A model generated the notes under the pieces. The model did not search any database, had not been told where the DNA came from, and was given only the letters and a program-made list of their open reading frames with translations. Positions 3,099 to 32,073 of a stretch of 32,073 bases of DNA are shown here, piece by piece. The position numbers and the translations under genes were made by a program. Every line of letters begins with the position of its first letter. The first letter of the stretch is position 1. This DNA comes from a virus. Location of the stretch: the IMG/VR virus record IMGVR_UViG_3300035698_004441, positions 1-32,073 of that record; one strand, given 5' to 3'.

Positions 3099-3641
3099 AT
3101 GACTGAAGAAGAGAAATCCGAATTATCGCCTGATGCGATGGCTTTGTTTGAAGTACAAGGCCAAGCGCCAGCTCCAAATACTCCAAAATTAGATAATGGA
3201 ATTACCGATGAAGATGCTATTAAGAAGATCCTTTCAAACTTTGACGAAGAGCTTGTTAAGTGGGATGGGATTATTTCATCAATCACTTTTAGAATGAGAG
3301 ACATTGGTAAATGTGTTGACGTTCAAATGGATCTTTACGATCATCGTCATCAGATAGTCGATCGTAAGCACAAACTCCTTCGGACCCTTGCTAAGTTCTC
3401 AATGAAGTACAAAGAACAACGAGCAGCAAGACTTCAACATTATACCGGGAACTATGATCGTAAACTGACTACAGGTGAACGAGACAAGATGGTTGATTCG
3501 GATACAGCAAAAATGAAATACAAAATGGATCTCTTAGAGAACCATGTTAACCAAATAGATCAAATCTTCAAACTGATCGAGAATGTAATCTTCGGATTGA
3601 AACATCGATTAGAACTTGAGGCGTATCTAAGAAAAATGTAA
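3099..3641 (+). CDS. uvsY: UvsY-like recombination mediator
   Basis: UvsY loads the UvsX recombinase onto gp32-coated ssDNA. The C-terminal 75 residues match the T4 UvsY pattern: an arginine-rich ARLQHYTGNYDRKL block, then ERDKMVDSD, then a long amphipathic helix ending HRLELEAYLRKM. T4 UvsY has KARLDYYSG, EMKTVLSAD and a similar terminal helix. At 180 residues it is longer than T4 UvsY (137), with an extra acidic N-terminus. Position just upstream of a UvsW-like helicase matches the uvsY/uvsW neighbourhood of T4 and strengthens the call. The stop overlaps a following ATG (TAATG). Confidence 0.7.
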   Translation: MTEEEKSELSPDAMALFEVQGQAPAPNTPKLDNGITDEDAIKKILSNFDEELVKWDGIISSITFRMRDIGKCVDVQMDLYDHRHQIVDRKHKLLRTLAKFSMKYKEQRAARLQHYTGNYDRKLTTGERDKMVDSDTAKMKYKMDLLENHVNQIDQIFKLIENVIFGLKHRLELEAYLRKM

Positions 3642-3683
3642 TGACTGTAGAACAAGAAAAATATTCGCAACTGATTATTGGGT

Positions 3684-4124
3684 ATGACGTTAGATCTTCA
3701 GCTCGGTAAAATAGATATAGAACTCTATTTAAGTAATATGGAATTTGCGCTTAAAGGAATGTCAAAAAACGGAAACAAAAAAAGAATCATGAAAGACCAA
3801 CAAAAAGTAACAATAGACGAGTTAATTCAGGAACAAAATGACCTGGGGAACGTAGAAGTAAAGGAGGATTTGAAGTACGTTCTTACCAGAGGAGATGGAC
3901 TTGTAAAGAAGTCTAAAGACATTATTTGGATTGAGTGGAATCCTGATGGATCATTCAAAGCAAAGCACGAACATCCTGAGGAAGGACGAAGTCTTTTGAT
4001 GAGTCCATTTAATGTACATTTCACATGGCAGACAACACAGATTGCTGAGTGGGATGTTGAAGAAGGTGCCATTACGTTCCGAACACAGAATAGTGATTAT
4101 ACACTTGAAAAAATAAAGCCATAA
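3684..4124 (+). CDS. hypothetical protein between uvsY and uvsW, possibly frame-broken at its 5' end
   Basis: The clear reading frame begins MTLDLQLGKIDIELYL and ends RTQNSDYTLEKIKP (146 residues). It has a Trp-rich C-terminal half (IIWIEWNPDGSF, HFTWQTTQIAEWDVEEG) that looks like beta strands. A start overlapping the uvsY stop (ATG at 3641, MTVEQEKYSQLIIG) runs in another frame and would join this frame if one G of the GGG at about 3680-3682 were absent. The true gene may therefore start at 3641. An internal start at MKDQQK (3789) is also possible. T4 also has small unassigned genes near uvsY. Function is unknown. Confidence 0.6.
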   Translation: MTLDLQLGKIDIELYLSNMEFALKGMSKNGNKKRIMKDQQKVTIDELIQEQNDLGNVEVKEDLKYVLTRGDGLVKKSKDIIWIEWNPDGSFKAKHEHPEEGRSLLMSPFNVHFTWQTTQIAEWDVEEGAITFRTQNSDYTLEKIKP

Positions 4125-4131
4125 GAAGATA

Positions 4132-5667
4132 ATGCAACGCTGGGAAGTTACCGAAGATAATTTATGGCTCAAGCTCGTTGAATGGGATGATGAACTCGAT
4201 AGGAGACAGGTCGAGGTATCTTTCACGAAACCTGTAAAAGATGCTCACTTCAAGAAAAGACCGGGATGGGATGGTACTATTCCATTCTTAATGAAGAAAC
4301 GATATATCGCGGTTGGACTTTGGAAGGAGCTACTTACACTCAATGAAAAATTCAAGTTAGGGATTACAATCTTTGGACTTGAAAGAGTCATTGATTTTGA
4401 TGCTAAGTACGAAGACTTCAAAGCATGGGTTGATGAGGAATTCAAAGATGGTATTGGTGGTGATCCTGAGAAGATGCCACGAGAGTACCAGATTGAAGCT
4501 GCATTCAAGATCGTTAAGTATAAGATCAGTTCACAGGAACTAGCGACGAATGCCGGTAAGACTTTCATCACTTATATGGTGACTGCTTATCTCATGCATA
4601 AAGGAGCAAAGAAACTTCTGATGATTGTTCCTACAACTAACCTGGTGATTCAGGGTGTTGAAGACTTTCAAGAATATGGCGGTCATAAACATGGTATGAT
4701 ATACCAACAGATTCATGCTGATTCAAAGAAGATCAATTCTGAGGCAAATGTTGTCATGGGTACTTATCAATCACTCGTCAAGAAAGATGGTTCTTGGTTA
4801 AGTCAATTTGATATTGTGTTTGTCGATGAAGCACACGGTTGTCCAGCAGTTTCAATTAAGAGTATCATTGCTCAGTGTACTGGATCGAAATATCGTTTCG
4901 GTCTATCGGGTACATTGACTGCTGCAGGATTAGAAACCGCGGACTTCTTTACTATTCAGATGTGCCTTGGACCTATGGTAGGAAAGATCACACCAGAATT
5001 CCTCATAGAGAACGATTACGCCTCACCTGTGGACATTAAAATCATTCGAATGAAGTATCTACCCGATGCTACATTAGAACGTCTTGCGAAGCTCCGTAAG
5101 AATAAGATGGAAATGAAGGGCTCTGAGATATACCAGATCGAAAGAAAACTGGTGATCCAGTCTCGCTTACGTATGAATTTCATTTTGGACTTTGCCGTTA
5201 AGTCTTCCAAGAACACATTGATCTTGTATCAATCTGTTGAAGAAGGTTATGGCAAGACACTTTATGATGCATTCCGTGAACTAACACATGATCGTGAATG
5301 CTTCTACATTGATGGATTAACCAAGAATGATTTGAGAAATGAGTACAAGACCCGAATGAAAACCGGGGAAGGTAAAGTCATGATCGCTTCATTCGGTACA
5401 TTCTCAACTGGTATCTCGATCAATAACATTCACAACATCTTCTTGGTTGAATCTTACAAGTCTGAAAGTATCATCAAGCAGTCGATCGGTCGTGGTCTTA
5501 GAAAGCATGCTGACAAGGATAAAGTACGGATCATTGACTTCGTAGACAACTTTACTTGGAAGAACCAATTGAACTATCTGATGGATCACTCTAACGAACG
5601 TATTATGATATACGAAAAGGAGAAGTTCCCATATCAAGTTATCGACGTGGATCTCACGACCCGGTGA
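4132..5667 (+). CDS. uvsW: UvsW-like superfamily 2 helicase
   Basis: This ATP-dependent DNA/RNA helicase in T4 unwinds R-loops and branched intermediates and helps switch from origin- to recombination-dependent replication. The 511 residues match T4 UvsW in length. Visible motifs are Walker A TNAGKT at about residue 139, motif Ia IVPTTNLV, the DEAH box FVDEAHG at about residue 232, motif III GLSGTLT, and motif VI SIGRGLRKH in the C-terminal RecA lobe. The N-terminal ~110 residues correspond to the substrate-binding domain. It follows the UvsY-like gene and appears intact. Confidence 0.9.
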   Translation: MQRWEVTEDNLWLKLVEWDDELDRRQVEVSFTKPVKDAHFKKRPGWDGTIPFLMKKRYIAVGLWKELLTLNEKFKLGITIFGLERVIDFDAKYEDFKAWVDEEFKDGIGGDPEKMPREYQIEAAFKIVKYKISSQELATNAGKTFITYMVTAYLMHKGAKKLLMIVPTTNLVIQGVEDFQEYGGHKHGMIYQQIHADSKKINSEANVVMGTYQSLVKKDGSWLSQFDIVFVDEAHGCPAVSIKSIIAQCTGSKYRFGLSGTLTAAGLETADFFTIQMCLGPMVGKITPEFLIENDYASPVDIKIIRMKYLPDATLERLAKLRKNKMEMKGSEIYQIERKLVIQSRLRMNFILDFAVKSSKNTLILYQSVEEGYGKTLYDAFRELTHDRECFYIDGLTKNDLRNEYKTRMKTGEGKVMIASFGTFSTGISINNIHNIFLVESYKSESIIKQSIGRGLRKHADKDKVRIIDFVDNFTWKNQLNYLMDHSNERIMIYEKEKFPYQVIDVDLTTR

Positions 5668-7085: not shown

Positions 7086-9026
7086 ATGGCCGGTATAAAA
7101 CACCTGACAGACATTTACAGAGTACAAGGAAAAGAGTTTATCACAAAACTCTTCGATGGCTTTGTTACAGTCAACGAAAAATTGGACGGAAGTGCATTCT
7201 CAGTCGAGAAGAATTTCGTAACCAAAGAGCTTGAATTTTACAAGAGAAACAACAACGTTCCAATATCATTGGTTGATCGAACATTAGCCAGATTCTATGA
7301 GAAGCCAATCGAACATTTCAATAGTCTACGTATTGAGATAAAAGATAAGATGCCACAAGGCTGGAGATTCGGTTTCGAATACCTTCTATCTGAGCGTCCT
7401 CAAGAGATTGCTTACGATCGAATTCCAAAGAATTCGTTGGTTCTATCTTACATACACGTCAGAAATGGTTCTGGTCAAATTATCAGAACGATCCAAGATA
7501 AAGATGATCTAGACAAATGGGGAGACATTCTCCAGGTTGAACGACCACCAATTATATTTCAAGGTGTTCTTAACGATGAGCAGAAGATTCAGATTATGGA
7601 TTTCCTTGATACACCGAGGACAGAGCTAAATCTTAAATTCAAGACTGAATCTTTTATCAAATACATTATATCGGTTCTTAACCCTAAGTTGAGAAAGACC
7701 TTATTGAATGATGATCTTAGTAAGCCTATTGAAGGTGTTGTGTTTAGATTCGGATCCGTTGATCAAGAAGTTGTATTGGCCAAACTAGTCGATCCTATTT
7801 TTCAGGAACTAGCAAAGCAGAAATTATCAACACCGACCGGTGGTAACGATATTTATCATATCACATTGCTTGACATCATGAATTACTTTGATGGTCTTAA
7901 CCTTAACAAGTTCAAGCCAATGGGTCGTTCATATGATGAGCGTTATATCAATTTCATATCCAAAGCATTTAATGATCTCGTTGCAGATCATGGAGAGGAT
8001 TATGAAGATGTTGATTTCAATGAACCAGAATATCTTAAGAAACCAGAATTCGATTTGAACGCTGAGTTTATTGATGACCAAGTTACCTTGAGTCATATTG
8101 ATCGTGCAGATGGTCTTAAGAAACTATTCAAGATCATGCTTTCAGCTTTCAAGAACAAGCGACGTAAAGTAACTGGAATATTCACAAAGGGTGTCATAGA
8201 ACAGTTCAATCAAACTGTTGATATGATTAACAGACACTTGATGCAAAATTTACGAATCGTAGAAAGTGAAGTTCCATTATTTGGTGACTTCCTAGATCGA
8301 AGAGGTCGAGGTGCAGAAATTGCAGAAACCGAGGAAGAAGATTCGGAAGAGGAAGAACTATATGCTGAAGACGAACCTAAAGACGAACGTGAATTTGATG
8401 CTGAGAAGTTCAGAGAAAAAATGGACAGTCTTGAAGGTGGTGAAGAAAAAGACGAAGGCAAGAAGAAAAGAAAGGCCGGTAAAAAGGTCAATATGATTGT
8501 TGGTCGTTTCCAACCATTCCACAATGGTCACATGGAGATGATCGAAGAGATCTATTCAGTAAACAAGTATCCAGTAATGATTGTTGCGGTTCACCCGGGA
8601 CATAACAAATCTGGTAAGAGTCCATTATCATTAACTACAATGCGAACCATGCTCGAGAATCTTCAACAAGATGGTAATGGTAAGATTTGTGGACACCGTA
8701 TTATCGGTCGTGGATTCATTGGAGACATTATAGAAGCGGTCAGACCAGATTTCGAGCCTGTTCTATGGGGTGTTGGACCAGACAGAATCATTGGTTATCA
8801 GAAACAACTTGAGCATAATTACATGCGAAAGAATGAATTAAATCTTGATGAGCGATTTACTGTTATGGAAACCAAACGATACATGAGTGGTACGGATGTT
8901 CGAGAGAATATCTTCAATGATTCATTCGGTGCATTCAAAGCACAAGTTCCTAAAAGCGTTCAAACCATATTTCCATTACTCCGTAATGACATCTTGAAGT
9001 ATGATCTACCAGCTAAAGAAGAGTAA
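7086..9026 (+). CDS. nucleic-acid ligase fused to NMN adenylyltransferase (NadM/NadR type)
   Basis: Two enzymes are joined in 646 residues. Residues 1 to about 400 hold a covalent nucleotidyltransferase (ligase) domain: motif I EKLDGS with the AMP-accepting Lys32, a motif III-like GWRFGFEYLL, motif IV IEGVVFRFG and a motif V-like LAKLVDP. It is more likely an RNA ligase than a replicative DNA ligase, but this is not certain. An acidic then lysine-rich linker spans about 405-465. From residue 466 follows an NMN adenylyltransferase domain with GRFQPFHNGH (HxGH ATP site) and SGTDVREN (SGTxVR), which makes NAD+ from NMN and ATP. It would complete the NAD+ route begun by the PRPP-synthetase homologue and NadV at 28-32 kb. 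No frame break is visible. Confidence 0.85.
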   Translation: MAGIKHLTDIYRVQGKEFITKLFDGFVTVNEKLDGSAFSVEKNFVTKELEFYKRNNNVPISLVDRTLARFYEKPIEHFNSLRIEIKDKMPQGWRFGFEYLLSERPQEIAYDRIPKNSLVLSYIHVRNGSGQIIRTIQDKDDLDKWGDILQVERPPIIFQGVLNDEQKIQIMDFLDTPRTELNLKFKTESFIKYIISVLNPKLRKTLLNDDLSKPIEGVVFRFGSVDQEVVLAKLVDPIFQELAKQKLSTPTGGNDIYHITLLDIMNYFDGLNLNKFKPMGRSYDERYINFISKAFNDLVADHGEDYEDVDFNEPEYLKKPEFDLNAEFIDDQVTLSHIDRADGLKKLFKIMLSAFKNKRRKVTGIFTKGVIEQFNQTVDMINRHLMQNLRIVESEVPLFGDFLDRRGRGAEIAETEEEDSEEEELYAEDEPKDEREFDAEKFREKMDSLEGGEEKDEGKKKRKAGKKVNMIVGRFQPFHNGHMEMIEEIYSVNKYPVMIVAVHPGHNKSGKSPLSLTTMRTMLENLQQDGNGKICGHRIIGRGFIGDIIEAVRPDFEPVLWGVGPDRIIGYQKQLEHNYMRKNELNLDERFTVMETKRYMSGTDVRENIFNDSFGAFKAQVPKSVQTIFPLLRNDILKYDLPAKEE

Positions 9027-15377: not shown

Positions 15378-15396
15378 TTTCCGTTTGTCAATATTA

Positions 15397-15408
15397 TTCT
15401 TATCTTTG
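15397..15408 (+). promoter_or_regulatory. TTCTTATCTTTG promoter-like element
   Basis: Exact TAnnTTTG match, followed after 4 nt by ATG 15413. The same 4-nt spacing occurs at 16076, 22287 and 27751. Confidence 0.6.
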
Positions 15409-15412
15409 GTCC

Positions 15413-15708
15413 ATGAGAAGGCAATCGATCAATCTGGGAACAACGAAACTGAAGCCATTGGTAAATTGGTTTTAAGACTGCAAAAAGAATCAGTCGAAAC
15501 AGAACCGATCAAGGATGCTATTGTAAAGGCAATGAAATCACATCGGGATTTCATTGCCGAATTTGAAGTTGTTAGAAGATCAATTGAATGTGACTATTAC
15601 AATCATTCAGCTATTAATGGTCGAACACTTGATAGTACCGAAAGGCAGAGAATGATTGAATCTGATGCAAAACGACATGGTAGTAATTTGACTAGACAAT
15701 ACAAATGA
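15413..15708 (+). CDS. small protein with UvsY-like segment, start frame uncertain
   Basis: The long frame reads KAIDQSGNNETEAIGKLVLR and continues to DAKRHGSNLTRQYK, but has no ATG before 15532. A TTG at 15385 or 15406 would lie in the promoter-like element. The ATG at 15413 is one base out of frame; one extra A after ATGAGA would give MRKAIDQSG. The C-terminal block (RRSIECDYYNH, GRTLDSTERQRMIESDAK) resembles the ARLQHYTG / TTGERDKMVDSDTAK part of the UvsY-like protein at 3099, so it may be a partial paralogue. It overlaps the next gene by ATGA. Confidence 0.5.
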
Positions 15709-16052: not shown

Positions 16053-16075
16053 GAGGCTTAATTATTCGTTATTTT

Positions 16076-16087
16076 TTCTTATCTTTA
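16076..16087 (+). promoter_or_regulatory. TTCTTATCTTTA promoter-like element
   Basis: Preceded by a T-run, it lies 4 nt before ATG 16092. It probably starts a transcript with essentially no 5' leader. Confidence 0.6.
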
Positions 16088-16091
16088 TGGT

Positions 16092-16358
16092 ATGAAAGAA
16101 ACAACGCTAGTATCCGCCCCAGTAATTACTCTTAAGAATGTTAAAACTTTTGTTGGCCGTGAAGGTCACGGATTGAATGCAGACGTTTATGTCGATGGTG
16201 TGAAAACCGCATTTTGTCGTGATGATGCTTCAGGTGGCGAAGTTGATTATGATGTTTACAACCTAGAAGACTACGATGGAGTTTTTGAGCTTCACGCAAA
16301 CCACATCAGAGCATTGAGAAATGCTGGAATCACAGTACCAAAAGAATTTGAATCATGA
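16092..16358 (+). CDS. small hypothetical protein (88 aa)
   Basis: MKETTLVSAPVITLKNVKTF starts a beta-rich protein with NADVYVDGVKTAFCRDDASGG, a strand-turn-strand followed by an acidic loop, and a helical end (HANHIRALRNAGITVPKEF). It overlaps the pentapeptide-repeat gene by ATGA, which links the two in expression. No family was recognised. Confidence 0.65.
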   Translation: MKETTLVSAPVITLKNVKTFVGREGHGLNADVYVDGVKTAFCRDDASGGEVDYDVYNLEDYDGVFELHANHIRALRNAGITVPKEFES

Positions 16359-16960
16359 AAACTAAAATCGAAATCAAATCAGTATTCGGAAAAGTACTTT
16401 TCGAGCACGAAACCGAAAACAACACACTATCGAAAACGGTCAGTGAAGCCGTAAAAAGCTCTGCTGACCTTAGCTCTGCTGACCTTAACTATGCTAACCT
16501 TCGCTATGCTGACCTTCGCTCTGCTAACCTTCGCTATGCTAACCTTAGCTCTGCTGACCTTCGCTATGCTAACCTTCGCTATGCTAACCTTAGCTATGCT
16601 AACCTTCGCTATGCTAACCTTAGCTCTGCTGACCTTAGCTCTGCTGACCTTAACTATGCTAACCTTCGCTATGCTAACCTTAGCTCTGCTGACCTTCGCT
16701 ATGCTAACCTTCGCTATGCTAACCTTAGCTCTGCTGACCTTCGCTATGCTAAGACTGACAAGAGGTACATTCAAGTCTCTTGCATTGGCTCATCTAAGCG
16801 TATGACAACCTACTGTTTTGAAGATGATATTGTAACGTGTGGGTGCTTTAAAGGAACACTAGAATCGTTCAAGAAACAGGTTGAGAGCACTCATAAAAAC
16901 AACGACCAGTACTTGAAAGAATACCTAGGACTTATTAACTACCTAAAATCACTAAAATGA
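16355..16960 (+). CDS. pentapeptide-repeat protein
   Basis: Residues 37-131 are nineteen uninterrupted A(D/N)Lxx pentapeptides (ADLSS, ADLNY, ANLRY, ADLRS...), which fold as a right-handed square beta helix. Some family members (Qnr, MfpA) mimic DNA and protect or inhibit gyrase; others have unknown roles. A short N-terminal domain (MKTKIEIKSVFGKVLFEHET) precedes the helix, and the C-terminal ~65 residues (DKRYIQVSCIGSSKRMTTYC...) form a separate part with cysteines. The repeat DNA is nearly identical from unit to unit, so length may vary between strains. A gyrase role is only a possibility. Confidence 0.88.
   Translation: MKTKIEIKSVFGKVLFEHETENNTLSKTVSEAVKSSADLSSADLNYANLRYADLRSANLRYANLSSADLRYANLRYANLSYANLRYANLSSADLSSADLNYANLRYANLSSADLRYANLRYANLSSADLRYAKTDKRYIQVSCIGSSKRMTTYCFEDDIVTCGCFKGTLESFKKQVESTHKNNDQYLKEYLGLINYLKSLK
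16463..16747 (+). repeat. 15-bp coding repeats in the pentapeptide gene
   Basis: Nineteen 15-bp units, mostly variants of CTTAGCTCTGCTGAC and CTTCGCTATGCTAAC, use almost no synonymous variation. This suggests recent expansion or recombination. Other frames stay open across the array, creating spurious ORFs on both strands. Confidence 0.9.
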
Positions 16961-19723: not shown

Positions 19724-20938
19724 ATGAGAAACTACATGAGAAACATCAGTTGGTATAAGGAATTAGACCCGTATCTTCATATACTGAAGCGGGTTGAAAA
19801 GTGGGTGGGAACATCTAACTTATTGGAGGTGTTGTCTGCTTGGGATCAACCAGAAAGACACTACCATAATCTTGACCATATGATTAAGATGTTTGATCAA
19901 TTTAATGAATGGTTCGATTGGAATACAGATCAGATACCAACAGAAACCCTTCAAACTGGGTTTGATGCTTTGGAAAAACAAGCAGATATTATGGCTTGTG
20001 CAATTGTATATCATGACGCCGTTTATAATCCTTGTGCTGAAGGCAAAGACAACGAACAGCATTCTATAGAATTATGGCAAGAACATGTCAAATTCAGAAA
20101 AGAAGTGATTGTTAAACATTTGAAACAACCAACTGATAATGAACTATTGACGCATAATCTTTCAGTTGCATCTTTAATTGACGCCACAAAAGATCATACG
20201 GATTTAGGAGAACCTGGAACATTACAACGAATATTCATTGAATGGGATCTTAAGAATCTTATTTCATCAGATTTAGGTCAATTGATTAGATCTGAGAATA
20301 AGGTCATGAAGGAATACCAGTTCTATGATTATGATCTATATCGAGTAGGCAAAGTTGCATTACTCGAAACGTTCGTACCAGTTTGTAAAAAACTGAATCC
20401 TGATACTGCGATTGAAGGATTGATTGATTACATTAAAAATAGGGTATTGAACATCGGTGTCTATGCTGGTACGTTCTACCCAATGCATGTAGGACACTAC
20501 AGCATTCTTAAAAGGGCTGAGAAGGTCTTTGATAAAGTCATTGTAGCTTGTGGACATAATCCAACGAAAGATCATGACCTGCTACCATTAGGGGCTCAAA
20601 TAACTTTGAACGAAGTATTGCCTTATCATCAAGTTACAAGTTTCCCTGGATTACTGACAGAGTTTATTGCGTCAAAAAGAAGTGCTAATACAAATGTTAC
20701 CTTAATTAAAGGTCTTGGAAGATACCAAGATTTCGAGGAAGAAAAAATGCAAATGAGATATATGGAAGACTTTGATCCAGAGATCAATGTCGCCTATTTC
20801 ATTTCCGATAGAAAGTTCGATTATGTCTCATCTAGTGGTGCAAGAATAATTGAACAATTTGATGAAACCGCGTATAATAAATACGCGTTAGGGGAGTGGC
20901 CAGACGCAGAGGTCAAAATGAAAAGTGATGTGTCATGA
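19724..20938 (+). CDS. HD-domain phosphohydrolase fused to CoaD-like adenylyltransferase
   Basis: Residues 1 to about 230 resemble metal-dependent HD-superfamily hydrolases: RHYHNLDHMIKMFDQF near residue 47 and the HD pair in AIVYHDAVYNP near residue 97. From residue ~245 comes a nucleotidyltransferase of the HxGH class: GVYAGTFYPMHVGHYSILKR, IKGLGRYQDFEEEKMQ and YVSSSGARIIE. The last two correspond to CoaD (phosphopantetheine adenylyltransferase) blocks 'RGLR...DFEYE.Q' and 'SSSxVRE', so the domain is closer to CoaD than to NMN adenylyltransferase. The pairing suggests a nucleotide or CoA/NAD metabolite is both hydrolysed and adenylylated. A second ATG at 19736 is possible. It overlaps the next gene by ATGA. 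Confidence 0.8.
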   Translation: MRNYMRNISWYKELDPYLHILKRVEKWVGTSNLLEVLSAWDQPERHYHNLDHMIKMFDQFNEWFDWNTDQIPTETLQTGFDALEKQADIMACAIVYHDAVYNPCAEGKDNEQHSIELWQEHVKFRKEVIVKHLKQPTDNELLTHNLSVASLIDATKDHTDLGEPGTLQRIFIEWDLKNLISSDLGQLIRSENKVMKEYQFYDYDLYRVGKVALLETFVPVCKKLNPDTAIEGLIDYIKNRVLNIGVYAGTFYPMHVGHYSILKRAEKVFDKVIVACGHNPTKDHDLLPLGAQITLNEVLPYHQVTSFPGLLTEFIASKRSANTNVTLIKGLGRYQDFEEEKMQMRYMEDFDPEINVAYFISDRKFDYVSSSGARIIEQFDETAYNKYALGEWPDAEVKMKSDVS

Positions 20939-21991: not shown

Positions 21992-22278
21992 TGTCTAAGG
22001 TTAAAGAGTTAGATACTTCTAAGGTTGTTGAATTCTTCAATGATTATTGCTACAGATGTGTGATCATAAATGATTGGTCTAGTATCCGTAGGGGTATACC
22101 GAATGGTTCCCCTGGTGATGTTATGAAAAAAGGATACCAGGATTATCTGAAGATTACTCGGGATGATGTGTATTGGGATGAAGATCTAATCGAACAACTA
22201 GAAGAGGATTCAGACCTGATGTACTGGACTGATGGTAAAGACTTTTACTTTGGTATGAATAAATCACAGCGTATTTAA
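21991..22278 (+). CDS. hypothetical acidic protein (95 aa)
   Basis: I choose ATG 21991, which overlaps the preceding stop, over an upstream in-frame ATG inside the previous gene. The protein starts MSKVKELDTSKVVEFFNDYC, has IPNGSPGDVMKKGYQDYLKI and ends GKDFYFGMNKSQRI. It is soluble and acidic; no family was recognised. A TTCTTATCTTTA promoter-like element follows. Confidence 0.62.
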   Translation: MSKVKELDTSKVVEFFNDYCYRCVIINDWSSIRRGIPNGSPGDVMKKGYQDYLKITRDDVYWDEDLIEQLEEDSDLMYWTDGKDFYFGMNKSQRI

Positions 22279-22286
22279 CCAAATTT

Positions 22287-22298
22287 TTCTTATCTTTA
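22287..22298 (+). promoter_or_regulatory. TTCTTATCTTTA promoter-like element
   Basis: Same element and same 4-nt distance to ATG (22303) as at 15397, 16076 and 27751. Confidence 0.6.
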
Positions 22299-22302
22299 CA
22301 CT

Positions 22303-22758
22303 ATGGACATAGGAAGAAACAATAAAGGAGTAGCTAGGAGGTTGAGTAATTTCACCGCCCGACCTTTTATATTTGATGGTGTAGAGTGTGCTTCTATGGA
22401 AGGATTGCTACAAGGTTTCAAATTTGAGAACCCTTTAATTCAAGAACATGTCTGTACTCTTGTTGGTATCAAAGCCAAGCGAAGAGGTAGTAAAAGAAAC
22501 AAGGCATGGAAAGGTGGTCAAACACTTTGGTGGAAGGGCAAACCTTACGGTAGAAAATCCAACGAGTATCAAGACTTATTGGATGAAGCATATGAAGCAC
22601 TTGGTACCAACGAGCATTTCAAGAAAGACCTTTTGTCAACAGGCAAAGCGGTTTTCACACATGCCATTGGTAACAACAAGAAATCCGAGACCGTATTGAC
22701 CGAAGCAGAATTCTGTAGAAGACTTACATGGTTACGAATGAAATTCCTTCAAGAATGA
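22303..22758 (+). CDS. NADAR (YbiA-like) family protein
   Basis: The opening LSNFTARPFIFDGVECASME followed by GLLQGFKFEN is the NADAR/YbiA signature ('LSNF...PF..DG..y.s.E...Q..Kf'). The C-terminal helices (EAYEALGTNEHFKKDLLSTG, THAIGNNKKSETVLTEAEF) fit the fold, and 151 residues is a normal length. Some NADAR proteins remove ADP-ribose from modified guanine, acting as antidotes to DarT-type toxins; others cleave N-glycosidic bonds in riboflavin intermediates. In a phage that also encodes NAD+ synthesis genes, reversing ADP-ribosylation of phage DNA is the attractive role. It has its own promoter-like element and overlaps the STAS-like gene. Confidence 0.8.
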   Translation: MDIGRNNKGVARRLSNFTARPFIFDGVECASMEGLLQGFKFENPLIQEHVCTLVGIKAKRRGSKRNKAWKGGQTLWWKGKPYGRKSNEYQDLLDEAYEALGTNEHFKKDLLSTGKAVFTHAIGNNKKSETVLTEAEFCRRLTWLRMKFLQE

Positions 22759-24396: not shown

Positions 24397-24430
24397 AAAT
24401 AAATCGCCAGAAATTTTAGTGTCATATTTT

Positions 24431-24442
24431 TTCTTATCTTTA
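24431..24442 (+). promoter_or_regulatory. TTCTTATCTTTA promoter-like element
   Basis: Same element, but here 49 nt before ATG 24492, with an A-rich leader between (AGAAACGAGAAACAAAAATC). This gives a leadered transcript, unlike the other copies. Confidence 0.6.
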
Positions 24443-27721: not shown

Positions 27722-27750
27722 TTCCAAGAAGCACACCCTATTCATTCTTT

Positions 27751-27762
27751 TTCTTATCTTTG
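27751..27762 (+). promoter_or_regulatory. TTCTTATCTTTG promoter-like element
   Basis: Exact TAnnTTTG core preceded by a T-run, 4 nt before ATG 27767. It would drive the UVR-motif, prs-like and nadV genes. Confidence 0.62.
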
Positions 27763-27766
27763 TATC

Positions 27767-28156
27767 ATGATTTTAACGGTCTGGTATACGATAACATATA
27801 GTGCTCTCATAATTTTTGGGTGTGTTATGGTTTTCGGAGTCATGGCTGTTCTGCTTGTTGACTCTCGTAATTCTCGTGTTAAACGACAAACAGAGACACA
27901 ACAAAAAGAGATTCTCCAAGCTCGAAGGCTTGATGCAGAATTACATACATTACGATGGCAAGATACACTTAGACAAGATCTTGAAGCACCAGAAATAATC
28001 AGCAAAGAAGATCTAGATACCAAGCTCAAAAAGTTAGAGTTTTACGATGTAAAGTTAGTGGATGCTCTCGATAAAGAGGATTACGAATCTGCTGCCGTAT
28101 TAAGAGATGAGATTGAGAAATTGAAGCAAGAACTAAATACAGAAAAAGATGCTTAA
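27767..28156 (+). CDS. membrane-anchored protein with a UVR motif
   Basis: The N-terminal membrane helix (residues ~9-31, YSALIIFGCVMVFGVMAVLL) is followed by a basic, then helical cytoplasmic part. The last ~35 residues (KLVDALDKEDYESAAVLRDE, IEKLKQEL) match the UVR motif of UvrB, UvrC and McsA-type proteins, a helical hairpin for protein-protein contact. A membrane-tethered UVR could bind a host repair or protease partner. It overlaps the prs-like gene by 8 bp. Confidence 0.65.
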   Translation: MILTVWYTITYSALIIFGCVMVFGVMAVLLVDSRNSRVKRQTETQQKEILQARRLDAELHTLRWQDTLRQDLEAPEIISKEDLDTKLKKLEFYDVKLVDALDKEDYESAAVLRDEIEKLKQELNTEKDA

Positions 28157-29120
28157 CGAATCGACACTTAGGGTTAACATGGGTGTACTTCCTCCAGCCT
28201 ATTGGGGAAAACAAGAAACAGCTTTAACCTATCAACAAAGTATCTTTCCTGGTGGAGAGGTGTTTGTCAGATTAAACCATCCTGAACAAGTTGATGAAAA
28301 AGATATTATTATCAGTGTTGCTCTTTTAGATTCAGCTGATATATTGAAGCTGATTATGATGGTGAATGCTCTGAGAGCTGCTGGAGCTTCGAAAATCTAT
28401 CTCTATATGCCATACGTTCCTTATGCCCGACAAGATCGAGTATGTACAGAAGGAGAAGCAAATGGTATCCAAGCATTCGGTGACCTGATCAATGATATGA
28501 ACTTTACAAAAGTGTTCGTACTTGATCCACATTCAAACGTTACTGAAACGGCTATCCGAAATATTCGCAGCACTACGAATCATCATTTCGTCCGAAGAGT
28601 TGCCGTTGATCTTTATAGTAAAGGATACAATAAAGAAAACACAATCTTTGTTTCACCAGATGCCGGAGCCAAGAGTAAGATGAAAAATTTGATCTCCTGG
28701 TTATATCCAATTTTTGGTTTCACAAATGTCTTTGGTGATAAGGTCAGAGATCAAGCAACAACAGAAATTCTTTATACATCAGTAGACGATCCTGATGATA
28801 TGATCGCAGGTAAGACTTGTGTTGTCGTGGATGATATTTGTGACGGAGGTCGAACATTCATTGAACTCGCGAAAGTTCTTTTGGAAAAAGGTGCATCTGA
28901 AGTTATACTGATTGTAACCTTTGGAATATTCAGTCAGGGCTTATCTCCATTTAAAGGACTCGTGACTAAGATTTATTCTACAGACGTTTTAAGCAAACCT
29001 GAAAGTATTCCTGGTGTTGAATACTTTCGTATGCCGATCACTATTTTGAAAGATCCAAAAACATGTGATCCAATTCCACCTTCTGCACTTATGCCAGCAG
29101 GAACTATTGGCACACTATAA
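28149..29120 (+). CDS. prs: ribose-phosphate pyrophosphokinase homologue (Prs, or ADP-ribose-acting Adps type)
   Basis: PRPP synthetase adds pyrophosphate from ATP to ribose 5-phosphate. The family signatures are FPGGEVFVRL (residue ~37), YMPYVPYARQDR (~85-96) and the ribose-phosphate loop VVVDDICDGGRTF (~225-237). The length of 323 residues is normal. The stretch DAGAKSKM replaces the usual 'D.GG..RA', a divergence also to be expected in a homologue with another substrate. Next to nadV, it supplies PRPP for NMN synthesis, or as an Adps-type enzyme it would pyrophosphorylate ADP-ribose as in the phage NARP1 pathway. Sequence reading alone cannot separate the two. Confidence 0.85.
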   Translation: MLNESTLRVNMGVLPPAYWGKQETALTYQQSIFPGGEVFVRLNHPEQVDEKDIIISVALLDSADILKLIMMVNALRAAGASKIYLYMPYVPYARQDRVCTEGEANGIQAFGDLINDMNFTKVFVLDPHSNVTETAIRNIRSTTNHHFVRRVAVDLYSKGYNKENTIFVSPDAGAKSKMKNLISWLYPIFGFTNVFGDKVRDQATTEILYTSVDDPDDMIAGKTCVVVDDICDGGRTFIELAKVLLEKGASEVILIVTFGIFSQGLSPFKGLVTKIYSTDVLSKPESIPGVEYFRMPITILKDPKTCDPIPPSALMPAGTIGTL

Positions 29121-29761: not shown

Positions 29762-29967
29762 GTTTGACACCAAAAAGCGTTGTTACAGAATATTCACCTG
29801 ATGAAGTAAAGAAATTGTTTGCTAAGGAATTAGGTGTTGATCAAAGTGAAATAGATTTGAACTTTGTGATCAATGATACTTCACCTGATCGTCCTGGACA
29901 TTCACCTTCTTATAAGGTGACCGCAATCAAAGTAAGAACAGAACCAAGTAATAAATTCGACATATAA
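29758..29967 (+). CDS. small hypothetical protein (69 aa)
   Basis: MSLTPKSVVTEYSPDEVKKL leads to a small soluble protein with LGVDQSEIDLNFVINDTSPD and a C-terminal strand (PSYKVTAIKVRTE). The ATG overlaps the previous stop. It lies 11 bp before nadV. Small proteins with the same 'I.F.I.D...D....' layout are common in phages. Function is unknown. Confidence 0.6.
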   Translation: MSLTPKSVVTEYSPDEVKKLFAKELGVDQSEIDLNFVINDTSPDRPGHSPSYKVTAIKVRTEPSNKFDI

Positions 29968-29978
29968 ACAATTACATC

Positions 29979-30806
29979 ATGAACTTTTTAGAACTTTATT
30001 GGACAGACGTTTATAAGACAGGACACAAACCAATGCTTCCACCTGGAAGTACATTGATGTTCTCAAACTCAACACCTCGAAGCGGTCGGCTATCGAACGT
30101 TCCTGGATCAGAAGGAATTATCGTTGCCGGTGCTCAGATGATGATGAGGAAATTACAGGATGATTGGTACAACAATTTCTTTATGAGACCAGTGTCTGAG
30201 ATCGAACAATTCGGTAAAGACATCACAGAGATGCTTATGTTGGACAAACCATATGATGTAAGTCATATGATTCAGTTCCATGCATTGGGTTATCTTCCGT
30301 TAGAGGTTCGTGCCATTGAAGAAGGTACATTCCTTCCTTATAAGATTCCAATGACCACGATTGTTAATACTCATCCAATTGATGGGACAATCGTTGATTG
30401 GTTGGTGAACTACCTGGAGTCACCTAATTCTGCTGAATCTTGGTTAACGCCAACTTCTGCCACTACTGCGTTTGCTTACAAGAAGAATGGTATGGCGAAC
30501 ATCAAAAAGACTGACCCAGAGAACATGTGGTTCTTGGATTACAAATACCATGATTTCTCAATGAGAGGAATGGGTGGTAAATCTGCAATTGTAAATTCGG
30601 GTCTTGGTTTTGCAATGGTAAGCAAAGGATCAGATTCACTTCCTGTTATCCCAGCAGCAAGAAAGTATTATGACGAAGATGGGGTTCCGATCTTTTCTGT
30701 TATTGCATCAGAGCACGCTATTATGTGTGCCAATATTGGTGTATTTGGTGAACGTATTAAGCAAGGCCTGGAAGATGTTCTCGTTTCAGAATATAATTCT
30801 TTTTAA
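29979..30806 (+). CDS. nadV: nicotinamide phosphoribosyltransferase NadV, N-terminal part (interrupted gene)
   Basis: NadV converts nicotinamide and PRPP to NMN. This frame holds the N-terminal half: FLELYWTDVYKTGHKPMLPP, then LDYKYHDFSMRGMGG (~residue 190) and the catalytic-His block VIASEHAIMC (~243-250). It then leaves homology and stops (SEYNSF) because an 866-bp insertion begins at about 30795. Joining at the flanking CAGAATAT repeats restores SEY-ATIKKMLNDFPTGIISLV in frame with the part at 31625. The RPDSGDP phosphate-binding block lies only in the second part, so the two pieces must assemble or the insert must be removed for activity. Namat-type homologues use ADP-ribose pyrophosphate instead. 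Confidence 0.87.
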   Translation: MNFLELYWTDVYKTGHKPMLPPGSTLMFSNSTPRSGRLSNVPGSEGIIVAGAQMMMRKLQDDWYNNFFMRPVSEIEQFGKDITEMLMLDKPYDVSHMIQFHALGYLPLEVRAIEEGTFLPYKIPMTTIVNTHPIDGTIVDWLVNYLESPNSAESWLTPTSATTAFAYKKNGMANIKKTDPENMWFLDYKYHDFSMRGMGGKSAIVNSGLGFAMVSKGSDSLPVIPAARKYYDEDGVPIFSVIASEHAIMCANIGVFGERIKQGLEDVLVSEYNSF

Positions 30807-31569
30807 ATTCTACACATGTTTCTTTTTTCCAATCATGTCTGGAGATCATGTGAGAATTGAAATTTCCGCCATCAAGATTTGATTTATTACAATCGGGACA
30901 TATATAACGTTTACGTTTATGTGCTCTTTTACAGCAATCTATTTTTTTACATGCGTTTTTTGCGGATTCACTCATTTTTTCTTTGGTAACATTTGAGTGT
31001 TTATGTCCAAGTGTAGTTGGTGTTGTTTTAAGTTTTTTACCCTTATCACTTTTCCAAAAAATATTATTCTTTTCTAACATATATTTTTGGTATTGTGTTT
31101 CACTCCATTTTTTTAACATTAAATCTTTACGATATTCACGATATTCTTCTGAGGACTGCCATATAGTTGAAGCTTTTGATATTTTATCTTTTGTATCTTG
31201 GCTTAAAATCCTTCCTTTATTATTGTAAGGCAAAGCATTGTTAAAATGGTCAACCTGGTTAATAAAGTCTTTTCTGTTTTTTGCATTTACTTTAGTCAAA
31301 AAATTTACTTCAAATATGCAGGCATCTTGGTAGCAAGAAAATGTTTTGTGTATTATTATTTCAAATGGTAATATATTTTGTTGTAATAAATTTTTTACAC
31401 TTTTGGATGATGTATAATATTTTTTGAAAATATCATCTGTTGGTTTATTATTTAATCGGACATTTCCATATCGGACGCCATAATAGTATTTTACCTTATT
31501 ATTGATTATAAATTTTAATAAATATGTATATGGTGCAATTAAATTGTTGGTTTTATTTATAAGAAACAT
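30757..31569 (-). CDS. GIY-YIG-type homing endonuclease inserted antisense in nadV
   Basis: The 270-residue product begins with a GIY-YIG-like core (YTYLLKFIINNKVKYYYGVR, residues ~14-33; YYTSSKSVKNLL; CIFEVNFLTK). It has NUMOD3-like repeats (SQDTKDKISKAS, KHSNVTKEKMSESAKNA) and a C-terminal zinc finger (ICPDCNKS...HMISRH). The last ~15 residues are read from the antisense of nadV itself, so the original C-terminus probably changed on insertion. Its AT content is much higher than in the flanking nadV, a sign of foreign origin. Its likely target is uninterrupted nadV in related phages. Confidence 0.8.
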   Translation of the reverse strand: MFLINKTNNLIAPYTYLLKFIINNKVKYYYGVRYGNVRLNNKPTDDIFKKYYTSSKSVKNLLQQNILPFEIIIHKTFSCYQDACIFEVNFLTKVNAKNRKDFINQVDHFNNALPYNNKGRILSQDTKDKISKASTIWQSSEEYREYRKDLMLKKWSETQYQKYMLEKNNIFWKSDKGKKLKTTPTTLGHKHSNVTKEKMSESAKNACKKIDCCKRAHKRKRYICPDCNKSNLDGGNFNSHMISRHDWKKETCVEFKKNYILKREHLPGLA

Positions 31570-31660
31570 TGATTTTTATTTTATATATCCATAGATTCCT
31601 TGTATTTTTGTTTAAAATAAAATTATGACTGAAAAAGAAATACAATCTGTTGCAGAATAT
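30795..31660 (-). mobile_element. 866-bp homing-endonuclease insertion in nadV
   Basis: Direct repeats CAGAATAT lie at 30787-30794 and 31653-31660. Deleting one repeat and the DNA between them removes 866 bp and fuses the two nadV frames exactly. Apart from the endonuclease gene only about 90 bp remain, too few for a group I intron core. Confidence 0.75.
31603..31610 (+). promoter_or_regulatory. TATTTTTG promoter-like element before the nadV 3' part
   Basis: A TAnnTTTG match lies 14 nt before ATG 31625, inside the insertion. It could give the downstream nadV piece its own transcript. In such AT-rich DNA a chance match is possible. Confidence 0.35.
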
Positions 31661-32073
31661 GCAACAATTAAAAAAATGCTTAACGATTTTCCAACCGGAA
31701 TTATTTCTTTGGTTTGTGATACCTTTGATCTTTGGCAAGTATTGACAGAATTTTTACCGCGACTCAAAGAAGAGATTCTTGCAAGAGATGGTAAGTTAGT
31801 TATCCGTCCTGATTCAGGTGATCCAGTTGATATTATGTGTGGTGAGATTGAATTTACAGATAAAGAAAGTTACGCATCGTATATCAACTGTGCACAACCA
31901 GATGAAAGAACACCAGCACAAAAAGGTGTTATCGAACTTCTTTGGGACATCTTCGGTGGTGAAATGACATCTACTGGATACAAGCGATTGAATGCTAAGG
32001 TGGGAGCCATTTATGGCGACTCTATCACGATCGATCGTTCAAACCGCATGGATGAGAGGGCAATAGAGAAAGG
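31625..32073 (+). CDS. nadV: nicotinamide phosphoribosyltransferase NadV, C-terminal part (runs off the window)
   Basis: The frame opens with MTEKEIQSVAEY, contributed by the insertion, then joins NadV homology at ATIKKMLNDFPTGIISLVCD. It continues with DTFDLWQVLTEFLPRLKEEI and LVIRPDSGDPVDIMCG (phosphate-binding block, ~residues 59-66), and later GYKRLNAKVGAIYGDSIT. It is still open at the window end. A new start codon, with a promoter-like element upstream, suggests it is made as a separate polypeptide that could complement the N-terminal part. Confidence 0.82.
   Translation, partial: MTEKEIQSVAEYATIKKMLNDFPTGIISLVCDTFDLWQVLTEFLPRLKEEILARDGKLVIRPDSGDPVDIMCGEIEFTDKESYASYINCAQPDERTPAQKGVIELLWDIFGGEMTSTGYKRLNAKVGAIYGDSITIDRSNRMDERAIEK

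Follow-up and report, generated by a model that had tools for sequence, protein, structure and literature searches.

A phage nadV gene split by an antisense GIY-YIG-type homing-endonuclease gene and its probable function as a two-chain enzyme

A nadV/namat gene carried by a metagenomic virus was found to be divided into two open cistrons by an antisense homing-endonuclease gene of the GIY-YIG type. This gene probably entered a loop of NadV and spreads by homing, and the two polypeptides left behind most likely form the usual enzyme. The window, that is the whole stretch of DNA analysed here, corresponds to a complete IMG/VR virus record of 32,073 bp, and because the contig ends within the second nadV part, the ~100 C-terminal residues of this part lie outside it. 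Alignment-based scans of IMG/VR identified two further split alleles with the same architecture, L042 and L120. As judged from sequence comparison, the data document this architecture, its three occurrences, two before/after pairs with their tract boundaries, the insertion in a loop and the conservation of active-site residues.

The split nadV locus

Re-examination of the open reading frames and their coordinates placed nadV-like parts 1 and 2 on either side of the antisense endonuclease gene (Table 1); the last 50 nt of this gene overlap part 1. The original prediction, which described nadV as split by a homing-endonuclease insertion into two open cistrons, was thus confirmed in all its coordinates; it had also rightly assigned the catalytic-His block to part 1 (EH, residues 245-246), the RPDSGDP motif to part 2, and to the latter an ATG of its own, present at 31625. 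Each half is open with its own start and stop, both being complete in L042 and L120, while part 2 of the window is open to the contig end. Part 1 matched the profiles phrog_448 and phrog_16547, and part 2 matched NAPRTase, phrog_448 and phrog_15800. The last of these is a C-terminal NadV family whose profile starts where part 2 starts, and it probably reflects phages with a split nadV. The gene upstream of nadV, which belongs to the same pathway, shares 33% identity over 204 aa with Adps, the partner of Namat in NARP1, but is Prs-like too. Cytidyltransferase or NMN adenylyltransferase-like stretches occur in two other ORFs of the window (7086-9026 and 19724-20938; phrog_3041 and phrog_3462), which together with nadV and the Prs-like gene could constitute an NAD+ salvage set.

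Searching IMG/VR with part 1, part 2 or the endonuclease as single proteins returned no matches, and alignment queries were needed to find the other alleles. Further scans of IMG/VR with the endonuclease added nothing to L042 and L120, and those of the genome collection gave no match.

Table 1. Features of the split nadV locus in the window and their counterparts in other contigs
Feature	Location	Strand	Description
Ribose-phosphate pyrophosphokinase / Adps-like gene	28149..29120	+	Upstream of nadV, same pathway
nadV/namat part 1	29979..30806	+	275 aa; nicotinamide-pocket and catalytic-His half, ends ..LVSEYNSF before the stop; profile matches, alignment, residue checks
Part-1 tail	30717..30806	+	3' of catalytic His, long-loop type; colinear with intact L104/L076
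GTTTCAGAATAT	30783..30794	+	First repeat copy, V-S-E-Y; coincidental, no insertion footprint
Homing-endonuclease gene	30757..31569	-	270 aa; GIY-YIG-type N-terminus, NUMOD3, C2H2-like zinc finger
Leader	31570..31624	.	55 nt, divergent, between endonuclease gene and part 2; cassette-borne (leader alignment)
nadV/namat part 2	31625..32071	+	149+ aa, cut by contig end; own ATG, head helix, RPDSGDP, YGDSI
GTTGCAGAATAT	31649..31660	+	Second repeat copy, V-A-E-Y; different NadV position
L042	contig 3300036715_002609		Part 1 276 aa (3501-4331); part 2 253 aa including ATG, complete; antisense endonuclease
L120	contig 3300042356_001193		Part 1 267 aa (1852-2655); intact endonuclease 264 aa; part 2 263 aa, complete
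L104, uninterrupted			Long-loop NadV, ..GELDDIVCEYLNSPKEEVDNLSNEEIRKIAEFATFKK..
L076, uninterrupted			Long-loop NadV, ..GLGQHLIDEYYSFDVPATKSTRENPDLMAIAEWANLREWL..

Uninterrupted siblings and transfer by homing

In relatives of the split alleles, the gene that harbours the endonuclease is contiguous (L023 for L042, L143 for L120) and the loop is empty in L104. L042 shares 89% DNA identity with the uninterrupted L023 over 4.1 kb, up to its position 4240 just past the catalytic His codon; the alignment resumes at 5230, with 95-100% identity around part-2 codons 102-141. Likewise, L120 is 94% identical to the uninterrupted L143/L144 up to position 2582, a few codons past the catalytic His, and its part-2 codons ~105-174 are identical to those of L143. 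Since identity is lost just past the His codon and regained some 100 codons into part 2, a cassette of ~1.2 kb appears to have been copied by homing with co-conversion. Sibling identity stops at the part-1 tail, and in both L042 and L120 the donor tract contains this co-converted tail, the endonuclease gene and the part-2 head, the recipient's own loop being replaced. These two before/after pairs with their co-conversion tracts, established by comparing the sequences of metagenome contigs, may reflect transfer of the endonuclease gene into empty alleles. The NadV body of the window resembles those of L026 (67%) and L022 (66%) only to residue 256, a nearly identical breakpoint.

A tree of the NadV N-terminal body (125 rows) requires three changes to the split state, forced by supported branches, and trees with a single change were found in 0% of bootstraps. 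Intact sisters were recovered for L120 (L143, 100/98), L042 (L023, 100/88) and the window (L026, 99/94), the window NadV lying on a long branch (0.51). Three changes, each with an intact sister, indicate that the cassette repeatedly moved among NadV backgrounds, matching homing with co-conversion.

The following course of events would account for this distribution. An antisense GIY-YIG gene may have entered the surface loop that connects the catalytic-His helix to the helix at the entry of the PRPP-binding half. We infer that the endonuclease cuts uninterrupted nadV at the empty site, and repair templated by the split allele would then copy the endonuclease gene together with the adjoining part-1 tail, including its stop, and the part-2 head, including its start. 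The recipient would hence produce two polypeptides, most likely co-folding into the usual NAMPT-like enzyme.

Alternatively, nadV could have been split first, the endonuclease later invading the gap between existing cistrons. Such a route has been envisaged as a possibility for gene 43 in Aeromonas phages 25 and 44RR (PMC2988022), and the loci examined carry no record of the initial event in the donor lineage. None of the fetched loci contained an endonuclease-free split nadV, the endonuclease being present in every split allele, and we consider this order of events improbable. It concerns the origin only and is compatible with a working two-chain enzyme.

Insertion site and the direct repeat

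The three part-1 tails (..VSEYNSF, ..IEEYYNLS and ..IKEYYSF) and the corresponding part-2 heads (MTEKEIQSVAEYATIKK, MKLTDEQIRDVAEFATFRK and MKNNFNITNPDYKGIAEYATFKN) are colinear with the long loop of the uninterrupted L104 and L076. A structure model of the L104 NadV, built with 28 sequences (pLDDT 90.4, pTM 0.90), matches Namat 9w5x (TM 0.92 by target) and HdNadV 9ke8. In this model the break lies in the segment linking helix 266-273 to helix 285-303, a stretch of lower confidence (down to 79), and it would cost little structure. The tails at the broken ends (~25 and 12-19 aa) are homologous to the intact NadV loop and displayed no split intein halves; a gene fractured by split inteins was ruled out.

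The direct repeats CAGAATAT noticed earlier at 30787-30794 and 31653-31660 do exist, with a spacing of 866, and the match extends to 11/12 nt (GTTnCAGAATAT). Deletion of one period does yield an open frame, and the fused NadV aligned over its full length with intact phage NadVs. Yet the claim that the insertion is exactly removable in frame had to be abandoned: the uninterrupted long-loop L104 and L076 contain both segments, and a distance of 22 residues in L104 separates the E of the part-1 EY from the E of the AE(F/Y/W) in part 2. SEY in part 1 and AEY in part 2 are thus different NadV positions, making the 8-bp repeat coincidental. The 12-nt repeat is absent from L042 (ATAGAAGAGTAT vs GTTGCAGAATTT), and a target-site duplication was ruled out by L104, L076 and L042. 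Judging from these alignments, excision at the repeat, or 'repair', would remove native loop. A third GTTnCAGAATAT copy occurs at 29782-29793, where the small ORF that directly precedes nadV reads V-T-E-Y in frame; three copies thus fall within 2 kb, with 0.02 expected in the window.

The endonuclease gene

The window endonuclease is 59% identical to that of L042 and 55% to that of L120. Its GIY-YIG-type motif includes Y14-T-Y16, Y29-Y-G31 and the catalytic Glu E87, which are invariant with annotated Seg-like enzymes, but a Pfam search returned no GIY-YIG domain match. NUMOD3 was detected in the window protein (23.8 bits vs a cut-off of 20.4) and fell just under the cut-off in that of L120 (19.7 bits). 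The structure model was poor (pLDDT 50) and unfit for fold search. Nei-Gojobori estimates of dN/dS for the endonuclease ranged from 0.10 to 0.33, rough values as dS is high. In L042, the endonuclease reading frame contains a TGA (4474-4476) ahead of its zinc finger, both nadV halves remaining open; this endonuclease is possibly decaying after homing. A 13-bp hairpin is found at L042 5099-5128, immediately upstream of the endonuclease start; translation-blocking hairpins occupy that place in phage endonuclease genes such as mobE. A late-promoter role for a TATAAATA-like string ahead of the endonuclease start was rejected, since this string is too close to the ATG. The part-2 head carries a short palindrome, GTTGCAGAATWTGCAAC (window 31647-31667; L042 ~5189-5210; partly kept in L120), which is a candidate endonuclease contact or just a coding constraint.

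The part-2 leader and the question of splicing

The endonuclease gene being antisense, translational coupling of part 2 to an upstream endonuclease is impossible. The leaders preceding part 2 in the window and L120 are both 55 nt long, and their alignment scored 17.5 against a shuffle mean of 1.8 (sd 3.1), none of 2000 shuffles scoring as high. Although the proteins have diverged widely, the leaders are alike, suggesting that the cassette carries along a signal serving either part 2 or the endonuclease. Part 2 is presumably expressed. The TAnnTTTG element attributed to part 2 in the original prediction was only partly upheld: the octamer is present at 31603-31610, but its role as a promoter was not supported, the motif being neither enriched in the window (22 seen vs 32 expected) nor conserved in the L120 or L042 leaders. 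Elsewhere in the window, a repeated leader, TTTTTCTTATCTTTG(n5)ATG, lies just upstream of several starts (15386-15416, 16073-16094, 22276-22306, 24420-24441 and 27740-27770) and is perhaps the phage's own TAnnTTTG-type promoter or leader. Within one ORF (16355-16960), some twenty 15-bp tandem units with a start-to-start distance of 15 (16398-16827) encode a five-residue protein repeat.

Homing endonucleases are often intron-borne, and the insert could be regarded as an intron that harbours an antisense endonuclease gene and splices itself out of the mRNA. Several other insertions in Pectobacterium phage CB7 do splice (PMC7344957). Rfam searches of both strands of the window, L042 and L120 revealed no intron match and no group I catalytic core was found in any of them, which led us to reject a group I intron. 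Moreover, the insert is taken up by the ORF and its 55-nt leader, part 2 supplies a start of its own, and an exact join at the repeat would delete native loop. Splicing is thus very improbable.

A two-chain enzyme or a dead gene

Across 36 intact NadVs, 80 residues are invariant; L042 and L120 keep every one of them, and the window keeps 62 of the 64 that it covers. The contacts reported for SPbetaL1 Namat are D13, Y15, F189, R192, D215, A242, R306, D308, G360 and D361 (PMC12774641); each split allele has all of them, some in part 1 and the others in part 2. The catalytic residues comprise D, Y, F, R, D and H in part 1 and R, D, G and D in part 2, so either half alone would presumably be inactive. 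The residues F392/Y396 of the aromatic selectivity-clamp helix of Namat are F/Y in L120 and Y/F in L042, and lie beyond the contig end in the window. Codon divergence between the part-2 heads of the window and L042 (0.33/0.18/0.50 at positions 1/2/3) appears as expected for a constrained coding stretch.

These data also bear on the main competing explanation, namely that the insertion inactivated a dispensable NadV whose halves are remnants yet to decay. The L120 insertion is very recent, so much so that its intact halves say little about post-split maintenance, which is only partly supported. The dN/dS of the part-1 body between siblings (0.05-0.06) was likewise not used as evidence of post-split function, the events being too recent. 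In addition, the window NadV lies on a long branch, and in Salmonella phage FO1a the N-terminal half of nadV was lost by deletion, so that the gene seems dispensable there. However, the six nadV halves contain no stops or frameshifts, a coding pattern is kept in the part-2 heads across an old cassette divergence, the invariant and contact residues are retained, and the part-2 start codon and leader travel with the cassette. A dead gene is therefore unlikely, although less so than the other alternatives, and a two-chain NadV, the halves of which would assemble into an active enzyme, is the best reading.

Other seemingly broken nadV genes, in isolate phages, proved not to be split alleles of this kind: in FO1a the deletion fuses an upstream HNH-like ORF to the nadV C-terminal half (L018 3803-5020), 357Saur119PP has two adjacent annotated ORFs and no insertion, TTM-TASP117 contains a run of N, and in one ICP1 isolate the gene is annotated as two pieces. 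Finally, an assembly artefact joining unrelated contigs is the least probable explanation of all, for while all three alleles come from metagenomic contigs, these agree in order, orientation and breakpoint region and carry diverged endonucleases.

Relation to known systems

The original prediction regarded this state of NadV as one not known to be described, but a nadV split by an unspliced endonuclease gene was reported in 2020 in CB7, where the HNH gene CB7_245 lies between the nadV pieces CB7_244 and CB7_246; RT-PCR showed no splicing, and the authors suggested two assembling peptides (PMC7344957). CB7 part 2 begins at the equivalent residue of the same loop (MKNLTLDQKRLVAE vs MKLTDEQIRDVAE; alignment). 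In both CB7 and phiTE, nadV likewise forms two cistrons around an endonuclease gene in that loop, but there the endonuclease is HNH, in sense orientation, and overlaps the flanking cistrons, whereas here it is GIY-YIG and antisense, and part 2 has its own leader. Because of the CB7 precedent, the split of nadV by a homing endonuclease is not wholly new; the novel elements are the GIY-YIG type of the endonuclease, its antisense orientation, split-adapted termini that were co-converted repeatedly, and before/after pairs of siblings.

The parallel drawn earlier with split genes of T4-like phages was appropriate, as illustrated by T4 gene 60/mobA and Aeh1 nrdA/mobE (PMC2988022). In Aeromonas phage Aeh1, an endonuclease gene likewise splits an enzyme gene into two polypeptides, and the split NrdA is active, as is the split gp43 of phage 25 (PMC2988022). 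MobE differs in belonging to the HNH family and in its target gene, and activity was demonstrated there, while a two-chain function is proposed here. T4 gene 60/39 with mobA and phage 25 gene 43 with seg43, a Seg (GIY-YIG) enzyme (PMC2988022), also contain a free-standing endonuclease inside a split gene, with other targets and no antisense arrangement noted there, and nrdD is split by a free-standing endonuclease in UAB_Phi87 (PMC4837284). The Seg-like enzymes of ACP17, Ps15 and phiN3 are roughly 27-30% identical to the present one and have the YTY..YYG..E motif in common with it, those of ACP17 and Ps15 having a CPxC zinc finger too, but they lie between genes (baseplate, recombination) and none is inside nadV. 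The closest solved relative of the split enzyme is SPbetaL1 Namat (PDB 9w5x, NARP1 pathway), which has the same catalytic contacts but consists of one chain, has a short loop where the split occurs and shares its adenine-clamp residues only in part.

Implications

The mobile unit may amount to more than the endonuclease gene. Tentatively, and with a little less than even confidence, we propose a gene-fission cassette that provides a ready-made two-chain interface, the loop being a natural split-permissive site on which an HNH element converged. Such a cassette would comprise the endonuclease and split-adapted NadV termini, namely the long part-1 tail with its stop and the part-2 leader, start and head helix. 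If this is true, homing swaps a short uninterrupted loop for a two-chain interface, NadVs of quite different backgrounds survive the cutting, and the unrelated HNH element of CB7/phiTE converged on that same loop.

With the alleles described here, fission of a gene by a homing endonuclease can be followed in natural before/after pairs, the tract boundaries being readable and the target enzyme assayable. They also show one enzyme loop cut independently by two unrelated endonuclease families. Annotation pipelines would otherwise record two partial or broken genes in these phages. Studies of NAMPT-like enzymes could also use this loop as a candidate split site. Within the NadV/Namat family, to which this enzyme belongs, the Namats rebuild NAD+ against NAD+-depleting bacterial defences (PMC12774641), and whether the two-chain form works therefore bears on phage counter-defence.
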